Positions 3,082-54,160 of a DNA stretch of 64,000 bases are shown in pieces. Made by a program: the position numbers and the translations under genes. The notes below the pieces were generated by a model. It was not told the origin of the DNA. It saw only the letters and a program-made list of their open reading frames with translations, and ran no database searches. Numbering within the stretch: the first letter of the stretch is position 1; every line of letters starts with the position of its first letter. Location of the stretch: contig JAGXGA010000061.1 in NCBI GenBank assembly GCA_024636975.1, positions 186,001-250,000 on the forward strand. The letters are read 5' to 3'. This DNA is from Mariniphaga sp. (GTDB taxonomy: Bacteria > Bacteroidota > Bacteroidia > Bacteroidales > Prolixibacteraceae).

Positions 3082-3151
3082 GTAAAAAAAATAATTCAGA
3101 ACAGTGCAACATTGAAATAAAAGTATCGTCATTAACACAGAACTGAATAAA

Positions 3152-3706
3152 TTGGAAAAACAGTATCAAAATATTCATCAGGATTTGATTGACCAATGTG
3201 GAAAAGGTAATCAAAAAGCCCAGTTCCAGCTGTATAAACTCTATTACAAGAGCATGTACAGCGTGAGTTTGAGAATAGTGAACCATGAAGCCGAAGCAGA
3301 AGACATAATGCAGGAGTCGTTTTTAAAGGCCTTCAAAAAAATAGATACATATCGGGGTGAGGTTAGCTTCGGTGCCTGGTTAAAAAAAATAGTAGTAAAC
3401 CGTTCTTTGGATCATTTGAAAAAAAAGAAAGTGCAGTTTGATGAGGTAAATACCCGTACCGCGCAGCTCGCCGATGATAACGAAACTTATACTGAGGTGG
3501 ATGTGGAAAGGATCAAGGGTGCCATCAGACTACTGCCCGACAGCTACCGCACCATCCTGAGCCTCTATCTTATTGAAGGATATGATCATGATGAAATTAG
3601 CGAAATACTGGGAATCAGTAATTCTGCATCGAGAACCCGGTATTCGAGAGCAAAGAGCAGATTAAAAGAATTGTTGAAAGGAAAAGAAATTTTTTTATAT
3701 AACTGA
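3152..3706 (+). CDS. ECF-type RNA polymerase sigma factor (RpoE family)
   Basis: Extracytoplasmic-function sigma factor, 184 aa. Region 2 spans about residues 25-90 (EAEDIMQESFLKAFKKI is the core-binding and -10 part) and region 4 about 120-172 (LPDSYRTILSLYLIEGYDHDEISEILG, then NSASRTRYSRAKSRLKELL as the DNA-recognition helix). No ATG exists upstream in frame, so the start is the TTG at 3152 or a nearby non-ATG codon. The next gene begins 2 bases after its stop and probably encodes its membrane regulator. Target promoters cannot be read from the sequence. Confidence 0.9.
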   Translation: MEKQYQNIHQDLIDQCGKGNQKAQFQLYKLYYKSMYSVSLRIVNHEAEAEDIMQESFLKAFKKIDTYRGEVSFGAWLKKIVVNRSLDHLKKKKVQFDEVNTRTAQLADDNETYTEVDVERIKGAIRLLPDSYRTILSLYLIEGYDHDEISEILGISNSASRTRYSRAKSRLKELLKGKEIFLYN

Positions 3707-11171: not shown

Positions 11172-11247
11172 GACTCAGTAGCTCAGTTGGTAGAGCACAT
11201 CCCTTTTAAGGATGGGGTCCTGGGTTCGAGCCCCAGCTGAGTCACCA
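11172..11247 (+). tRNA. tRNA-Lys(TTT)
   Basis: A complete cloverleaf of 76 bases. The acceptor GACTCAG pairs with CTGAGTC, the D stem is GCTC/GAGC, the anticodon stem CATCC/GGATG encloses loop CTTTTAA (anticodon TTT, lysine), and the T arm is CTGGG-TTCGAGC-CCCAG. The CCA end is encoded (11245-11247). It has its own promoter upstream and a terminator downstream. Confidence 0.97.
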
Positions 11248-11256
11248 AATATTTTG

Positions 11257-11288
11257 AAAAGGAAAGTCGTTAGGCTTTCCTTTTTTTA
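11257..11288 (+). terminator. Intrinsic terminator of tRNA-Lys
   Basis: Stem GGAAAG/CTTTCC (11261-11266 and 11275-11280), extended by an A-run pairing with a run of seven Ts, with an 8-base loop. It lies 10 bases after the tRNA CCA end and before the decayed tRNA copy, so that copy is probably not read from the tRNA-Lys promoter. Confidence 0.8.
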
Positions 11289-11293
11289 TTTTA

Positions 11294-11368
11294 ACACCAG
11301 TAGCTCAGTTGGCAGAGCATTCCGCCTAAGCGGAAGGGTCCTGGGTTCGAGCCCCAGCTGAGTCACCA
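11294..11368 (+). pseudogene. Decayed tRNA-Lys copy (tRNA pseudogene)
   Basis: A 75-base sequence shares with the intact tRNA-Lys the D arm and an identical 33-base 3' part (11215-11247 and 11336-11368, including CCA). The 5' acceptor strand reads ACACCAG and pairs with only 3 of 7 positions of CTGAGTC. The anticodon arm TTCCGC-CTAA-GCGGAA has become a perfect 6-bp stem with a 4-base loop, one base shorter than in the intact tRNA, with no normal seven-base loop and no U33. It cannot be a normal tRNA; it may be a duplication remnant. Confidence 0.8.
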
Positions 11369-11489
11369 GTAACAAAATGGAGAGCCGAATAAACCTTTAC
11401 TTATTATTTCCATTACACAACTTTAAATCATCAATCAACACCTGCTTAGCGTGAATACGCGCTATTTAGGTCAGATCAGGCCCTGACTT

Positions 11490-11597
11490 AATTCAATATT
11501 AATTCAGTATAAATTCAATAATAATTCAATGTAAATTCAATTATAATTGAATTTACATTGAGTTATTATTGAGTTAATATTGAGTTTACATTGAGTT
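11490..11597. repeat. 11-bp phased inverted pentamer array, locus A
   Basis: AATTC begins at 11490, 11501, 11512, 11523 and 11534, an exact 11-base step. After a 10-base gap, GAATT begins at 11549, then GAGTT at 11560, 11571, 11582 and 11593, again exact 11-base steps. The two 54-base arms are mirror related around 11543.5: 46 of 54 positions are Watson-Crick pairs. Five of the eight exceptions become G-U pairs in a plus-strand transcript, so an RNA would pair at 51 of 54. Confidence 0.95.
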
Positions 11598-11671
11598 TGA
11601 ACAGGAGAAGGTATAGAGAACGTATTATTTAAAGAGGTACATAAACACTGAATGTAATACCAACTCTTAAA

Positions 11672-50883: not shown

Positions 50884-51888
50884 TTAAGCTTCCTGCTTTT
50901 TATAATATTCGATGTTTCCGGCCGTGGCAATGTTTTTCACCTTCTCTACCAATGCCATGCGTTGTTGTTCCGAAAGTTTAACAAACGAGCGGGCGAGGGC
51001 GATTTTCTCCCTCATGTAAGTTGCGTTTTCGTTGCCTGAGATAAGCACCGAAACCGGTAACGACCACACAAAATGCATTGCTTCTTTTATGCTCAGGTAA
51101 TTTGGGATAATGGGATCGTCGCTGGTCCAGTTGGCTTCTTTCTTATTTGCAAAGAAACGTCCGTCGGCCAGTGATTTAATAGCCATGATACCCATATTAC
51201 GGTTCAACGCTTCGGGCATAACATTTTCAGTAAAACTAAAATACGAAGGGTCGAGGGCATTAACCGGCATCAGCACACCATCGAAAATATTGCTTTCGGT
51301 GGTCCGTTCCAGCATGCGGGCATGGGCGTAAGGATTCTGGTGACCGGTATACCCGATGTACCGAATCTTTCCCTGCTCCTTCGCCTTCAGCAATACATCC
51401 AGCACACCGTTTGCAATGCGGTCGTCAACATCCTGCGGGGTACGCACCGAATGCACCTGGTACAAATCAATCTGATCAACCTTCAGCCGGCGAAGTGATC
51501 CTTCCAGATGCTCCTGCACGGTTTTCGCATCGGGACCGGTGGTTTTGGTCATCAAAAAAATGAGGTCGCGGTACTTTGGAGTTAGGTACTTTCCATACCT
51601 TTCCTCGCTCACCCCCGCCGAATAGCTTTCTGCAGTATCAAAAAAACGCACACCTCCTTCCAGAGCAGCCTCAATAACCTCCTGCGCATCACGCTCAGTG
51701 GTCCAGCCAACATGGTAACCACCTGTGCCGAGCATGGTCACTAGTTCACCTGTCCGGCCAAATTTTCGTTTTGGGAGCACCTCCCCCAACCTGTCGGAAT
51801 CCTGGTTTTTTGCATACGATACGCTGCTAACCGATAAGCCGGCGGTTAAACCTGCCAGCGATTTTAAAAAAGTCCTCCTGTTTGCCAT
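50884..51888 (-). CDS. Tat-exported aldo/keto reductase
   Basis: 334-aa aldo/keto reductase fold. MANRRTFLKSLAGLTAG is a twin-arginine signal, so it should be folded in the cytoplasm and exported. The catalytic tetrad is complete: Asp84, Tyr89 (DTAESY), Lys115 (MTKTTG) and His146 (YQVHSV). AKR enzymes use NADPH, which is not expected outside, so the protein may use another bound cofactor or substrate. A start at 51924 would add 12 residues before the Tat signal; ATG 51888 fits better. Confidence 0.85.
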   Translation of the reverse strand: MANRRTFLKSLAGLTAGLSVSSVSYAKNQDSDRLGEVLPKRKFGRTGELVTMLGTGGYHVGWTTERDAQEVIEAALEGGVRFFDTAESYSAGVSEERYGKYLTPKYRDLIFLMTKTTGPDAKTVQEHLEGSLRRLKVDQIDLYQVHSVRTPQDVDDRIANGVLDVLLKAKEQGKIRYIGYTGHQNPYAHARMLERTTESNIFDGVLMPVNALDPSYFSFTENVMPEALNRNMGIMAIKSLADGRFFANKKEANWTSDDPIIPNYLSIKEAMHFVWSLPVSVLISGNENATYMREKIALARSFVKLSEQQRMALVEKVKNIATAGNIEYYKKQEA

Positions 51889-52167
51889 ATTGTTAAAGAT
51901 TAAATGATTCACTACTAATACCATTTACAACAAAAATTGTTTAAAGGTTACTGAAAATGAAACAGCTGAAAATTCAGGATAAGGCAAAAATCAGGTATGA
52001 GAGTATAAATAGTTTAATAAAAACATGATAATCAGGAAATGGTGATCGTAAATTAGTGAATTAACTGATAAATAAGTCCCCCCTCGGTATTTAACCGAAC
52101 TTCAAAATGAATAACTTTAATTGTAAATTAATCATATATCCAACTGAAGGCAGCTGCATGATAGCGT

Positions 52168-52198
52168 GAGATTGCTTTGCTGCGCGCGCAATGACGGC
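52168..52198. repeat. Dispersed GC-rich repeat fragment
   Basis: Read on the minus strand, it resembles the CGTCATTGCG...GCAAAGCAATCTC motif that I recall as a short repeat in many unrelated bacterial genomes. It stands out as GC-rich in an AT-rich gap. I infer a small mobile or recombinogenic repeat; no transposase is near. Confidence 0.4.
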
Positions 52199-52425
52199 TT
52201 TGTGGCGGGGTCAGCATGCGGCGCATCAAGTATCATGATATTATATATAACATTTGCGCCGCAGAAAAACCCATTTTTAAATAATTTATATAGTAGGTTA
52301 TGCATTACCTTTTGAAAGAAAGGTCCATTTCTCCATAATAGGTATCTTCTTATGGCAGCAGGCATATAATAAAAACTTCCTGTGGAATTACATGTAGTAA
52401 TTTCATCAATATTAAATTTGTAGTA

Positions 52426-52509
52426 TATTCGTATTAAATTCGTGGTTAATTCGTGGTTAATTCGATAAAATACGAATTTAATACGAATATACATCGAATA
52501 AATATCAAA
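52426..52509. repeat. 11-bp phased inverted pentamer array, locus B
   Basis: TTCG starts at 52428, 52439, 52450 and 52461, exact 11-base steps. The inverse CGAA starts at 52473, 52484 and 52495, and a decayed CAAA at 52506. AATTC at 52459 and GAATT at 52474 have the same 10-base gap as the central pair of locus A. The mirror centre is 52468.5. Arms pair at 26 of 44 positions, chiefly within the pentamers. Confidence 0.92.
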
Positions 52510-52864
52510 TAAAATACCTATATTTACTATAACTGATACTAACAGGATATTGAGTAACCGGCTCAGCGTTTTCATTCGATGAAGTGTTCACAGTAAATTT
52601 GGAAACATCCTTTGTTTGCTTTTTTTTTGTATTATGAATTATTTCTCCTTTTTTAAAATTTAAGATTGTTACTTTTGATTTGTGAAACCGGGAGGAGATT
52701 ATCGGATTTTTTATATTTTAGAAAACAGGATCGAAATGGAGTCCCGGTATGGAAAAGTTATAATCAGTGTTGGGTCATGAAATTCTAAAATGCCAATATC
52801 TGAGGAACATAAAAATACCTTGACAATAGCATCGAATACCTTTGAAAGTTATAAATCGGATAAA

Positions 52865-54160
52865 ATGAAAAATTTAATTACTCTTTTACTTATTCTGTCG
52901 GTATTTGGCACAATTGCCGGCGCTCAGACAAAATCGATCAACTCCACGCCGGAACTGAAGGAAGCTTCACCTGAAGAGGCAGGCATTTCACCTGAGCGGC
53001 TGGCACGCATTGACCAGATGTGTGAAGAAGCAGTAGCATCGGATGATCTTCCCGGCATTGTTGCCCTGGTGGCACGCGACGGAAAAATTGTGTTGTGGAA
53101 AGCATACGGCATGGCCGACAATCAGGCGGGAAGAAAATTACAACGCGACGATATATTCCGTATAGCTTCACAAACAAAAGCAGTTACTGCCACCGCCGTA
53201 ATGATGCTGTGGGAAGAGGGCAGATTTCAACTCGATGATCCAATTTCAAAGTACATTACCGAATTTAAGAACCCGCAGGTTTTATATACTTTCAATCCAG
53301 CCGACTCCTCGTGGACGGGCGAACCGGCAAATTCGGAAATTACAATCAGGCAGTTATTAACACATACCTCCGGAATAGGGTATGGTTTTATCGACAACGT
53401 TGAACACATGCGCATGATTTACCATAAAGCAGGGATAATCGATGCTTTTACCACAGAAGACATCATTATTGAAGAAAATATAAAAAAACTGGCCCTGCTG
53501 CCGCTGCATTTCCACCCCGGTAGTAAATATCGGTACAGTTTAGGACTGGATGTGCTGGGATACTTCATTGAAGTGGTATCGGGTTTGCCCTTCGATGAGT
53601 TTTTAAAAACACGGATTTTCGATCCGCTTGGGATGAACGATACCAGGTTTTACCTTCCGGAAGACAAAGCCGGCCGACTGGTGGCTGTTCAGCATAAAAC
53701 AGACGGGCATTGGGAAAAGTATCCTGTCACATCTTACGATACCGACTATCCTGTAAAAGGAGCAAAACGATTCTTCTCAGGCGGAGCAGGCCTTTCCAGT
53801 ACAGCAAAAGATTATGCTGTTTTCCTCCAGATGTACCTGAATGGAGGGGAATACAATGGTGTGCGGTTGCTTAGCCGCACTACGGTGAGAAGCATTATGG
53901 GAAATCAAACCGGAGATTTATGGGGCGGTGATGAAAAACATTACGGCCTTGCTTTTGGGGTAGTAACCCCTGAAGGACAGGACAAAGGTGGGATTGGAAG
54001 TGCAGGCACCTTTGATTGGGGAGGTTATTTCAACACCCAGTATTTTGCCGATCCACAGGAGGGGGTTATTGGCATATTAATGAAACAAACCCAGGGAGAT
54101 GTTAACGATCAAACCGGATGGAAATTCAGGCAACTGGTGTTTCAGACAATTGATGATTAA
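52865..54160 (+). CDS. Exported serine hydrolase (beta-lactamase/transpeptidase fold)
   Basis: 431 aa with a signal peptide (about 1-20, ending AGAQ). The penicillin-binding fold is shown by Ser102-Q-T-Lys105 (RIASQTKAVT), YSL in place of the YxN motif (KYRYSLGLDVLGY), the GLPFDEFLKTRIFDPLGMNDTRF block typical of the class C/esterase group, and GTFDWGGYF as the C-terminal triad region. The substrate could be a beta-lactam, a peptide or an ester; none is shown. I chose ATG 52865 for the signal peptide over an upstream ATG at 52790. It is 11 bases before deoC. Confidence 0.87.
   Translation: MKNLITLLLILSVFGTIAGAQTKSINSTPELKEASPEEAGISPERLARIDQMCEEAVASDDLPGIVALVARDGKIVLWKAYGMADNQAGRKLQRDDIFRIASQTKAVTATAVMMLWEEGRFQLDDPISKYITEFKNPQVLYTFNPADSSWTGEPANSEITIRQLLTHTSGIGYGFIDNVEHMRMIYHKAGIIDAFTTEDIIIEENIKKLALLPLHFHPGSKYRYSLGLDVLGYFIEVVSGLPFDEFLKTRIFDPLGMNDTRFYLPEDKAGRLVAVQHKTDGHWEKYPVTSYDTDYPVKGAKRFFSGGAGLSSTAKDYAVFLQMYLNGGEYNGVRLLSRTTVRSIMGNQTGDLWGGDEKHYGLAFGVVTPEGQDKGGIGSAGTFDWGGYFNTQYFADPQEGVIGILMKQTQGDVNDQTGWKFRQLVFQTIDD

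Follow-up and report, generated by a model that had tools for sequence, protein, structure and literature searches.

The genome of Mariniphaga sp. carries large symmetric arrays of 11-bp units in at least 113 distinct places, found on 41 of its 67 contigs (5.76 Mb). Two of these places, loci A and B, lie in the stretch analysed here (the window, 64,000 nucleotides of contig C20). The best explanation, to which we give a probability of about 0.5, is that the arrays are sites for a cooperative sequence-specific protein with a role in chromosome architecture or segregation. They look like an undescribed chromosome-organising system and not like a switch for the two genes beside locus B.

Table 1. 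Features of loci A and B, in positions of the window
Feature	Position	Strand	Description
Locus A, type-A array	11474..11613	.	dyad between 11543 and 11544 (C20:197544); central palindrome AATTCAATTATAATTGAATT
Locus B, whole element	52399..52538	.	dyad between 52468 and 52469 (C20:238469 = window 52469); 140 bp by analogy with the 140-column array models
Locus B, left arm	52415..52463	+	AATTT at 52415, TATTC at 52426, AATTC at 52437, 52448 and 52459; step 11
Locus B, core	52464..52473	.	GATAAAATAC, non-palindromic
Locus B, right arm	52474..52511	-	GAATT at 52474, GAATA at 52485 and 52496, degenerate unit near 52507; step 11
Left neighbour of locus B	50884..51924	-	aldo/keto reductase, PF00248
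Right neighbour of locus B	52790..54160	+	Pfam Beta-lactamase family protein, PF00144

Direct reading of locus B agreed with the first-pass annotation, which had described an exact 11-bp step, inverted arms and a 10-base gap between the central AATTC and GAATT. A recount of the pairing about the dyad also returned the earlier value of 26 of 44 (30 of 50 in a wider count). The weak pairing is true of that centre only, since a shift of the register by 11 bp brings the complementarity of the arms to 83% over 35 nt, and in that register the + strand folds as RNA into an uninterrupted stem of 22 bp. The shift would be accounted for by two additional TGGTTAATTCG units in the left arm. A two-unit pattern, with one mismatch allowed, matched four times in the window against 0.53 expected, and none of 100 shuffles reached four. 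In an autocorrelation scan of the window (periods 5-59) loci A and B alone stood out, at 11 and 22. Locus B lies inside a divergent gap, where it overlaps a 147-aa ORF without a Pfam match. A Pfam search of the five ORFs around locus B placed four of them in families unrelated to parM/parR and gave no match for the fifth. A separate dispersed intergenic repeat lies beside the locus (window ~52094-52299) and also at C42:57145-57350. Further copies lie close to several other arrays, with no constant distance or orientation.

Locus A had no match in plasmids and phages. Just before it lies a tandem pair of tRNA matches (window 11172-11360; L017 1183-1371). The second is much weaker (35.8 vs 71.9 bits, model positions 5-66 of 71) and is perhaps a decaying copy.

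The genome was searched with a type-B sequence model and a type-A paired model, both strands being counted. The type-B model gave 150 matches from the best 150 of 2238 candidates and the type-A model 147 from the best 150 of 1829. Merged with a separate list of places, these matches make up the at least 113 distinct places, and further arrays may exist. The first-pass annotation had named, as an outcome that would count against it, that loci A and B might be the only cases, and the census shows otherwise. Each arm of an array has about five or six units of 11 bp, and the two arms are inverted about a core, the whole lying within ~140 bp. Type-A model matches mostly fill all 140 columns, some being 129 or 118 bp long (one or two units fewer). 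The pentamer score at the best centre was at least 36 of 50 in 110 of the 113 places listed. It was 29 or 33 in the other three, C5:18674, C45:49426 and C38:21035, the last of which has one clear arm only. Going by the base after TC, 74 of the 113 places listed were labelled A and 39 B, a rough division in which A mixes AACTCAATGTA-like units with core AATTCAATTA/TAATTGAATT and AACTCACATCA-unit arrays with B-like cores. Arrays labelled B have units resembling TTCGTAGTTTA or TTCGGGGTTAA, and CGCGAT often flanks the centre on one side. Three places (C6:49212, C20:139414 and C33:165917) were wrongly centred and took no part in the arm and information tests. For these tests type A was narrowed by its core to 54 or 63 arrays, depending on the test, which left a mixed remainder of 56 or 47. 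The flanks of the arrays within this genome have assorted intergenic repeats in common, at variable distance. Four arrays (C58:31576, C58:80166, C30:36905 and C48:329813) have ~400-600 bp of homologous flank in common on one side, suggesting that they may derive from an older, larger element.

The geometry was measured on four complete contigs (C48, C14, C38 and C20; 1.42 Mb, 34 arrays). Adjacent exact pentamers inside the arrays were 11 bp apart in 182 cases and 8 bp apart in one, with none at 9, 10, 12, 13 or 14. Outside the arrays the same pairs numbered 15-36 for every step between 8 and 14 (21 for step 11). Random steps of 9-13 bases, the other outcome that had been set against the earlier proposal, thus did not occur. 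All 120 exact triple pentamers on the four contigs were inside arrays. A pentamer scan at a score of at least 36 found 33 places in the real sequence of these contigs and two in the reversed sequence, missing C38:21035. A motif-free scan for a dyad with an 11-bp period (cut-off 78) recovered 33 of the 34 arrays and no other period-11 place; its period-11 maxima were 70 in 400 kb of the congener G002 and 66 in sequence shuffled in 3-base blocks. At periods 9, 10, 12 and 13 a few places passed the cut-off, and they were mostly known arrays. The passes outside arrays were C48:320035 (period 9) and C14:62396 (period 12), and C48:169740 passed at period 22.

In the B-like remainder (47 arrays, mixed) the mean information was highest at the T (1.34 bits), the C (1.61) and the following base (1.09), and the spacer minimum was 0.20 bits. 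The earlier expectation that the spacers vary freely around a fixed pentamer and step was therefore borne out in part: the step is invariant and these three bases carry most, but two spacer positions also carry signal (1.16 and 0.80 bits in the same remainder). The spacers of neighbouring units were most alike within an arm (0.63), against 0.56 between arms and 0.50 with another array, as tandem duplication would produce.

An alternative is that the arrays are transcribed as a long hairpin RNA, or form a cruciform, and that the helix is the selected feature. Loci A and B do fold better than shuffled sequences on both strands (z -4.2 to -10.1). The arms of type-A arrays are distinct from each other (EM log-likelihood -2921 vs -3052 +- 26 in 15 nulls), and 63 type-A arrays could be oriented by arm type. 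In these, an array's own arms matched at 39.0 of 55 positions and swapped arms at 39.4 (z -1.7), and allowing G-U pairing made no change. Compensatory change between the arms was thus not found in type A. Own arms were in fact poorer than swapped arms at 27-38 bp (z -6.3) and 38-49 bp (z -2.6) from the dyad. This poorer match at units 2 and 3 may reflect avoidance of a perfect palindrome, or a fixed difference between the arms that was imperfectly oriented; under either reading, type A gives no sign of selection for pairing. In the remaining 56 arrays, a mixed group, the result differed: own arms were more alike than re-dealt arms (z 6.9), for which mixed subtypes or a common origin could account. 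The wobble counts are also uneven. G-U outnumbered A-C by 209 to 180 in 54 type-A arrays, unevenly within arrays (P 0.019), and by 282 to 201 in the 63 oriented ones. In the 56 other arrays the counts were 195 G-U and 207 A-C, and none of 5000 simulations was as uneven within arrays. Differing arm composition could explain this imbalance. There was no Rfam match to the arrays in six loci, the two tRNAs near locus A being the only Rfam matches, and no terminator-like site was found in window positions 51900-52900. A helical RNA was rejected despite the strong folds, given that type-A arms lack co-variation and Rfam gave no array match in the six loci, and we regard this alternative as very improbable. 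The first-pass annotation had argued that phased units and not a helix are what is kept. The invariant step and the type-A arms agree with it, while the 56-array remainder and the shifted 22-bp helix of locus B do not. On balance the comparisons of array sequences support phased units, and hence probable binding of the DNA by a protein.

The arrays are intergenic. On the four contigs, where predicted ORFs cover 85-90% of the sequence, 33 of the 34 arrays lie outside them, the exception being locus B. Sixteen arrays are in tandem gaps, 11 in convergent gaps and six in divergent gaps, to which locus B in its own divergent gap is added. Convergent gaps are enriched (11 of 33 arrays vs 52 of 378 gaps, P 0.002). 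Divergent gaps are not (7 of 34 arrays, counting locus B, vs 109 of 378 gaps on the four contigs). The earlier note had taken the divergent gap at locus B as the mark of a regulatory site and proposed operators at which a transcription factor controls the neighbouring genes. The phased dyad is indeed sequence-specific, and locus B is placed as such an operator would be. The preference for convergent gaps in place of divergent ones does not bear this out, and regular spacing would not be expected of a regulon, so that of all the explanations weighed here we consider this one the least probable. Neighbouring genes were also compared between genomes for a subset of loci. Most pairs had a single gene in common, with identities from ~20% to 77%, and no common intergenic position was seen for the pairs inspected.

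Regular spacing was observed in this genome alone among those examined. Over all contigs, the 72 intervals among the places listed have a minimum of 13.5 kb, none being below 13 kb, and a CV of 0.43. On the four contigs the 30 intervals have a median of 35.0 kb, the same minimum of 13.5 kb and a CV of 0.34. The observed spacing was unmatched in 10,000 random intergenic placements, where the mean CV was 1.01 (lowest 0.55) and the largest minimum 7.1 kb. Intervals below 13 kb, a mark chosen from the data, numbered 9.7 on average in the random placements and zero in the four contigs. For the 11 contigs with at least four arrays (59 intervals) the best period was 33.0 kb, and 64% of the intervals fell at 25-45 kb. 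The coherence of 2.34 was above the 95% points for uniform placement (1.88) and for shuffled intervals (2.29). The spacing order is mainly short-range, because the coherence exceeds that of shuffled intervals only marginally. Replication polarity was considered and rejected, as the orientation of 18 oriented arrays on the four contigs had no consistent relation to GC skew.

Arrays were patchily distributed among other genomes. Among 140 genomes of the family, the triple pattern had 369 matches in this genome (48 in the control), 56 in G021 (1) and 6 in G022 (0). It was present in 26 of the 140, and the 23 others had at most three matches each. Three congeners (G001-G003) had no match to it and no convincing array, the one weak match in G002 not being array-like. 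The function of the arrays is dispensable, since these congeners show none. With model R1 at E 0.001 there were 129 matches in G021, 104 in G022, 38 in G093, two in G051 and none in G028; at the G051 locus just one arm is present. Applied to 10 further genomes, the model gave seven weak matches in G016, which belongs to another family, and single matches in G002, G005 and G009 that are not array-like. The geometry is kept with other units in G021, G022, G093 and two G016 loci, where step and dyad agree. The units are AATTCGAAACA, AATTCGTAGAT and GAAGTTCATTC, with TACGTATTTCA in the two G016 loci. The central TC is 5 nt from the dyad in the present genome and 10 nt from it in the aligned arrays of G093, a difference of about half a turn. 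An array with type-A-like units was found in a contig of Marinilabilia sp. Soudan_9 (L279 12493-12632), one of 80 contigs, among which the only other place at that score was a run of N. The ATTCG triple occurred 39 times in the present genome and at most twice elsewhere in 396 genomes of the class, a sample that does not include G021, G022 or G093 and a pattern that is blind to other units. No viral contig matched the one type-A pattern used. The type-B pattern matched one viral contig (L443 ~3090-3260), in an arrangement unlike the arrays. It has two clusters of 11-bp repeats pointing outward, with a terminator-like hairpin between them.

The spacing in the other array-bearing genomes was looser. 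In G021, 50 listed places gave 22 intervals with a minimum of 14.0 kb and a CV of 0.60, and a run of three triples at C10:47857 lies 7.7 kb from the array at C10:40153. G093 is a single contig, given as 5.2 Mb, in which a dedicated model found 57 places, or 55 after two pairs less than 1 kb apart (each within 400 bp) were merged before counting. The 55 places had no gap below 13.4 kb, where 6.9 gaps below 13 kb were expected (P = 4e-4), and a CV of 0.96. A further subtype in this genome, gamma (TCACATATT units), had 48 matches against one in the control, in 21 places. Four of these were omitted as single weak matches, leaving 17 counted, two of which merged with earlier places. With gamma added (70 places) the smallest gap was 9.8 kb, the median 51 kb and the CV 1.02, and gamma adds two further close pairs. 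Close pairs in G093 are near 478.2/478.6, 850.6/850.9, 1882.0/1882.2 and 3311.8/3312.0 kb of C1. Ten of the 17 counted gamma places lie at 2.00-2.65 Mb, a 0.65-Mb stretch picked after seeing the data.

The patchy presence is what the main alternative predicts, namely that each array is a non-coding dispersing element, MITE- or REPIN-like, which binds its own mobilising protein and is spaced by target exclusion. No convincing array was found in the congeners. The 34 array neighbourhoods had no match in 400 kb of G002 (blastn, E 1e-20), which therefore offered no empty site for comparison. Both neighbours of locus B were aligned by blastn in five of 30 relatives. The aligned parts are 228 (Mariniphaga sediminis), 280, 366, 970 and 1,030 bp apart, compared with 1,021 bp at locus B. 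The array of locus B is absent from the corresponding place in these five, since none of them reaches the array score there. The alpha arrays of G093 sit in a larger repeat of 477-929 bp, which in at least 10 of 30 loci is bounded by 29-bp terminal inverted repeats, and dispersal in some form is likely for that reason. One such repeat (L415 1384-2311, 928 bp) has no long ORF, carries the 29-bp terminal inverted repeats and has the alpha array near one end. In the present genome many type-A copies have TACC...GGTA outer ends. The type-A copies and the alpha copies of G093 look like descendants of copying.

Other features do not fit such an element. No target-site duplication was seen by eye around the 113 elements listed in this genome, and none was consistent in 10 copies from G093, one of which has TAAAG on both sides. 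There is no exact triple outside the arrays on the four contigs, and diverged copies retain both step and unit. The clustering of intervals at 25-45 kb also goes beyond simple exclusion, which sets just a minimum. We therefore view dispersal of this kind as a possible but rather unlikely account of the arrays as a whole.

The arrays were compared with known systems. REPs usually exceed 100 copies per genome, as described in PMC2817692. Like REP/BIME and MITE sequences, the arrays are present as many intergenic palindromic copies, and in G093 some are part of a repeat that has terminal inverted repeats. They differ in their regular spacing over tens of kb, their invariant 11-bp step, the lack of stray exact triples on the four contigs and the lack of a consistent target-site duplication. 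Of MITE-like terminal inverted repeats, the present genome has the inverted architecture, with TACC ends in many copies only. The matS sites bound by MatP in the Ter macrodomain of E. coli are dispersed chromosomal sites of similar mean spacing: the 13-bp target is described as occurring 23 times in 800 kb, about once per 35 kb (PMC3330122). However, matS is a single 13-bp site of Ter only, whereas the arrays are ~140 bp of 11-bp units and are not restricted to the terminus. The parC region of plasmid R1 (type II partition) is described as having 11-bp repeats in two regions around a promoter, which are bound by the oligomerising RHH protein ParR with wrapping of the DNA, and from one plasmid system to another the repeats differ in sequence and spacing (PMC9426499, PMC5016525). 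The arrays resemble it in having 11-bp repeats in two clusters. Within each arm the units are direct repeats, but unlike parC, whose direct repeats lie upstream of its own partition genes, the arrays have two clusters that are inverted, and they occur in at least 113 places. KOPS and Chi are short, frequent words.

The nearest geometry is that of DNA gyrase sites. The E. coli motif is described as a symmetric sequence of 130 bp in which a central part is flanked on both sides by DNA with a GC periodicity of 10.75 bp, and binding is described as better where the phasing is good (PMC6379681). The arrays might accordingly be strong gyrase sites, phased dyads of 140 bp which the enzyme wraps and which set supercoil domains. 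The likeness extends to length, symmetry and ~11-bp-periodic arms, and is one of geometry only. A gyrase site is a degenerate GC rhythm with a fixed phase to its centre, whereas the arrays have a specific unit, read out by sequence, and a phase that differs between genomes; the half-turn difference from G093 would be disallowed by a fixed wrap. Gyrase is also described as essential in nearly all bacteria (PMC12324340), whereas the arrays are patchy. We consider this explanation improbable. We file the arrays under no known family, because the matS features looked for were absent, no target-site duplication of the MITE kind was found, and the likeness to parC and gyrase sites is confined to geometry. 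No printed description of such arrays was found with narrow terms in open-access full text, a scope that excludes subscription journals.

We suggest that each array is a putative DNA-binding site, neither gene nor RNA. An oligomerising protein that binds one unit after another, in the way that ParR occupies the split parC repeats of R1 (PMC5016525, PMC9426499), would fit a step of about one helical turn that does not vary, direct units within dyad arms, and units that differ from one genome to the next. Such a putative sequence-specific protein would place one subunit on each 11-bp unit, on one face of the DNA, and would spread cooperatively along each arm. Where the two inverted arms come together at the core, a single symmetric nucleoprotein block of ~140 bp would result. 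Occurring about once per 33 kb in this genome, such blocks could act on the whole chromosome, whether as anchors, as boundaries or as segregation sites distributed along it, much as matS sites serve MatP yet without being limited to one region. We infer the protein, its cooperativity and the architectural role from these features of the arrays. Several observations count against this explanation: the CV of 0.96-1.02 in G093, the close pairs in G021 and G093, the array-free congeners, the copied look of the arrays, the lack of clear tracking of GC skew, the marginal long-range order and the arm match in the 56-array remainder.

A wider version of this architectural reading is offered only tentatively. 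In some Bacteroidota, large symmetric iteron arrays placed once per 30-50 kb may form a lattice over the entire chromosome, which a fast-evolving partner protein would read for distributed (holocentromere-like) segregation or for loop anchoring, with regional subtypes such as gamma in G093. If this is true, regularly spaced and distributed chromosome-organising sites would be a new principle, as matS marks one region. If the arrays are mobile instead, they would represent an element that keeps its own copies apart, which is also unusual. Their patchy presence and genome-specific units would allow a direct functional test between array-bearing and array-free congeners.
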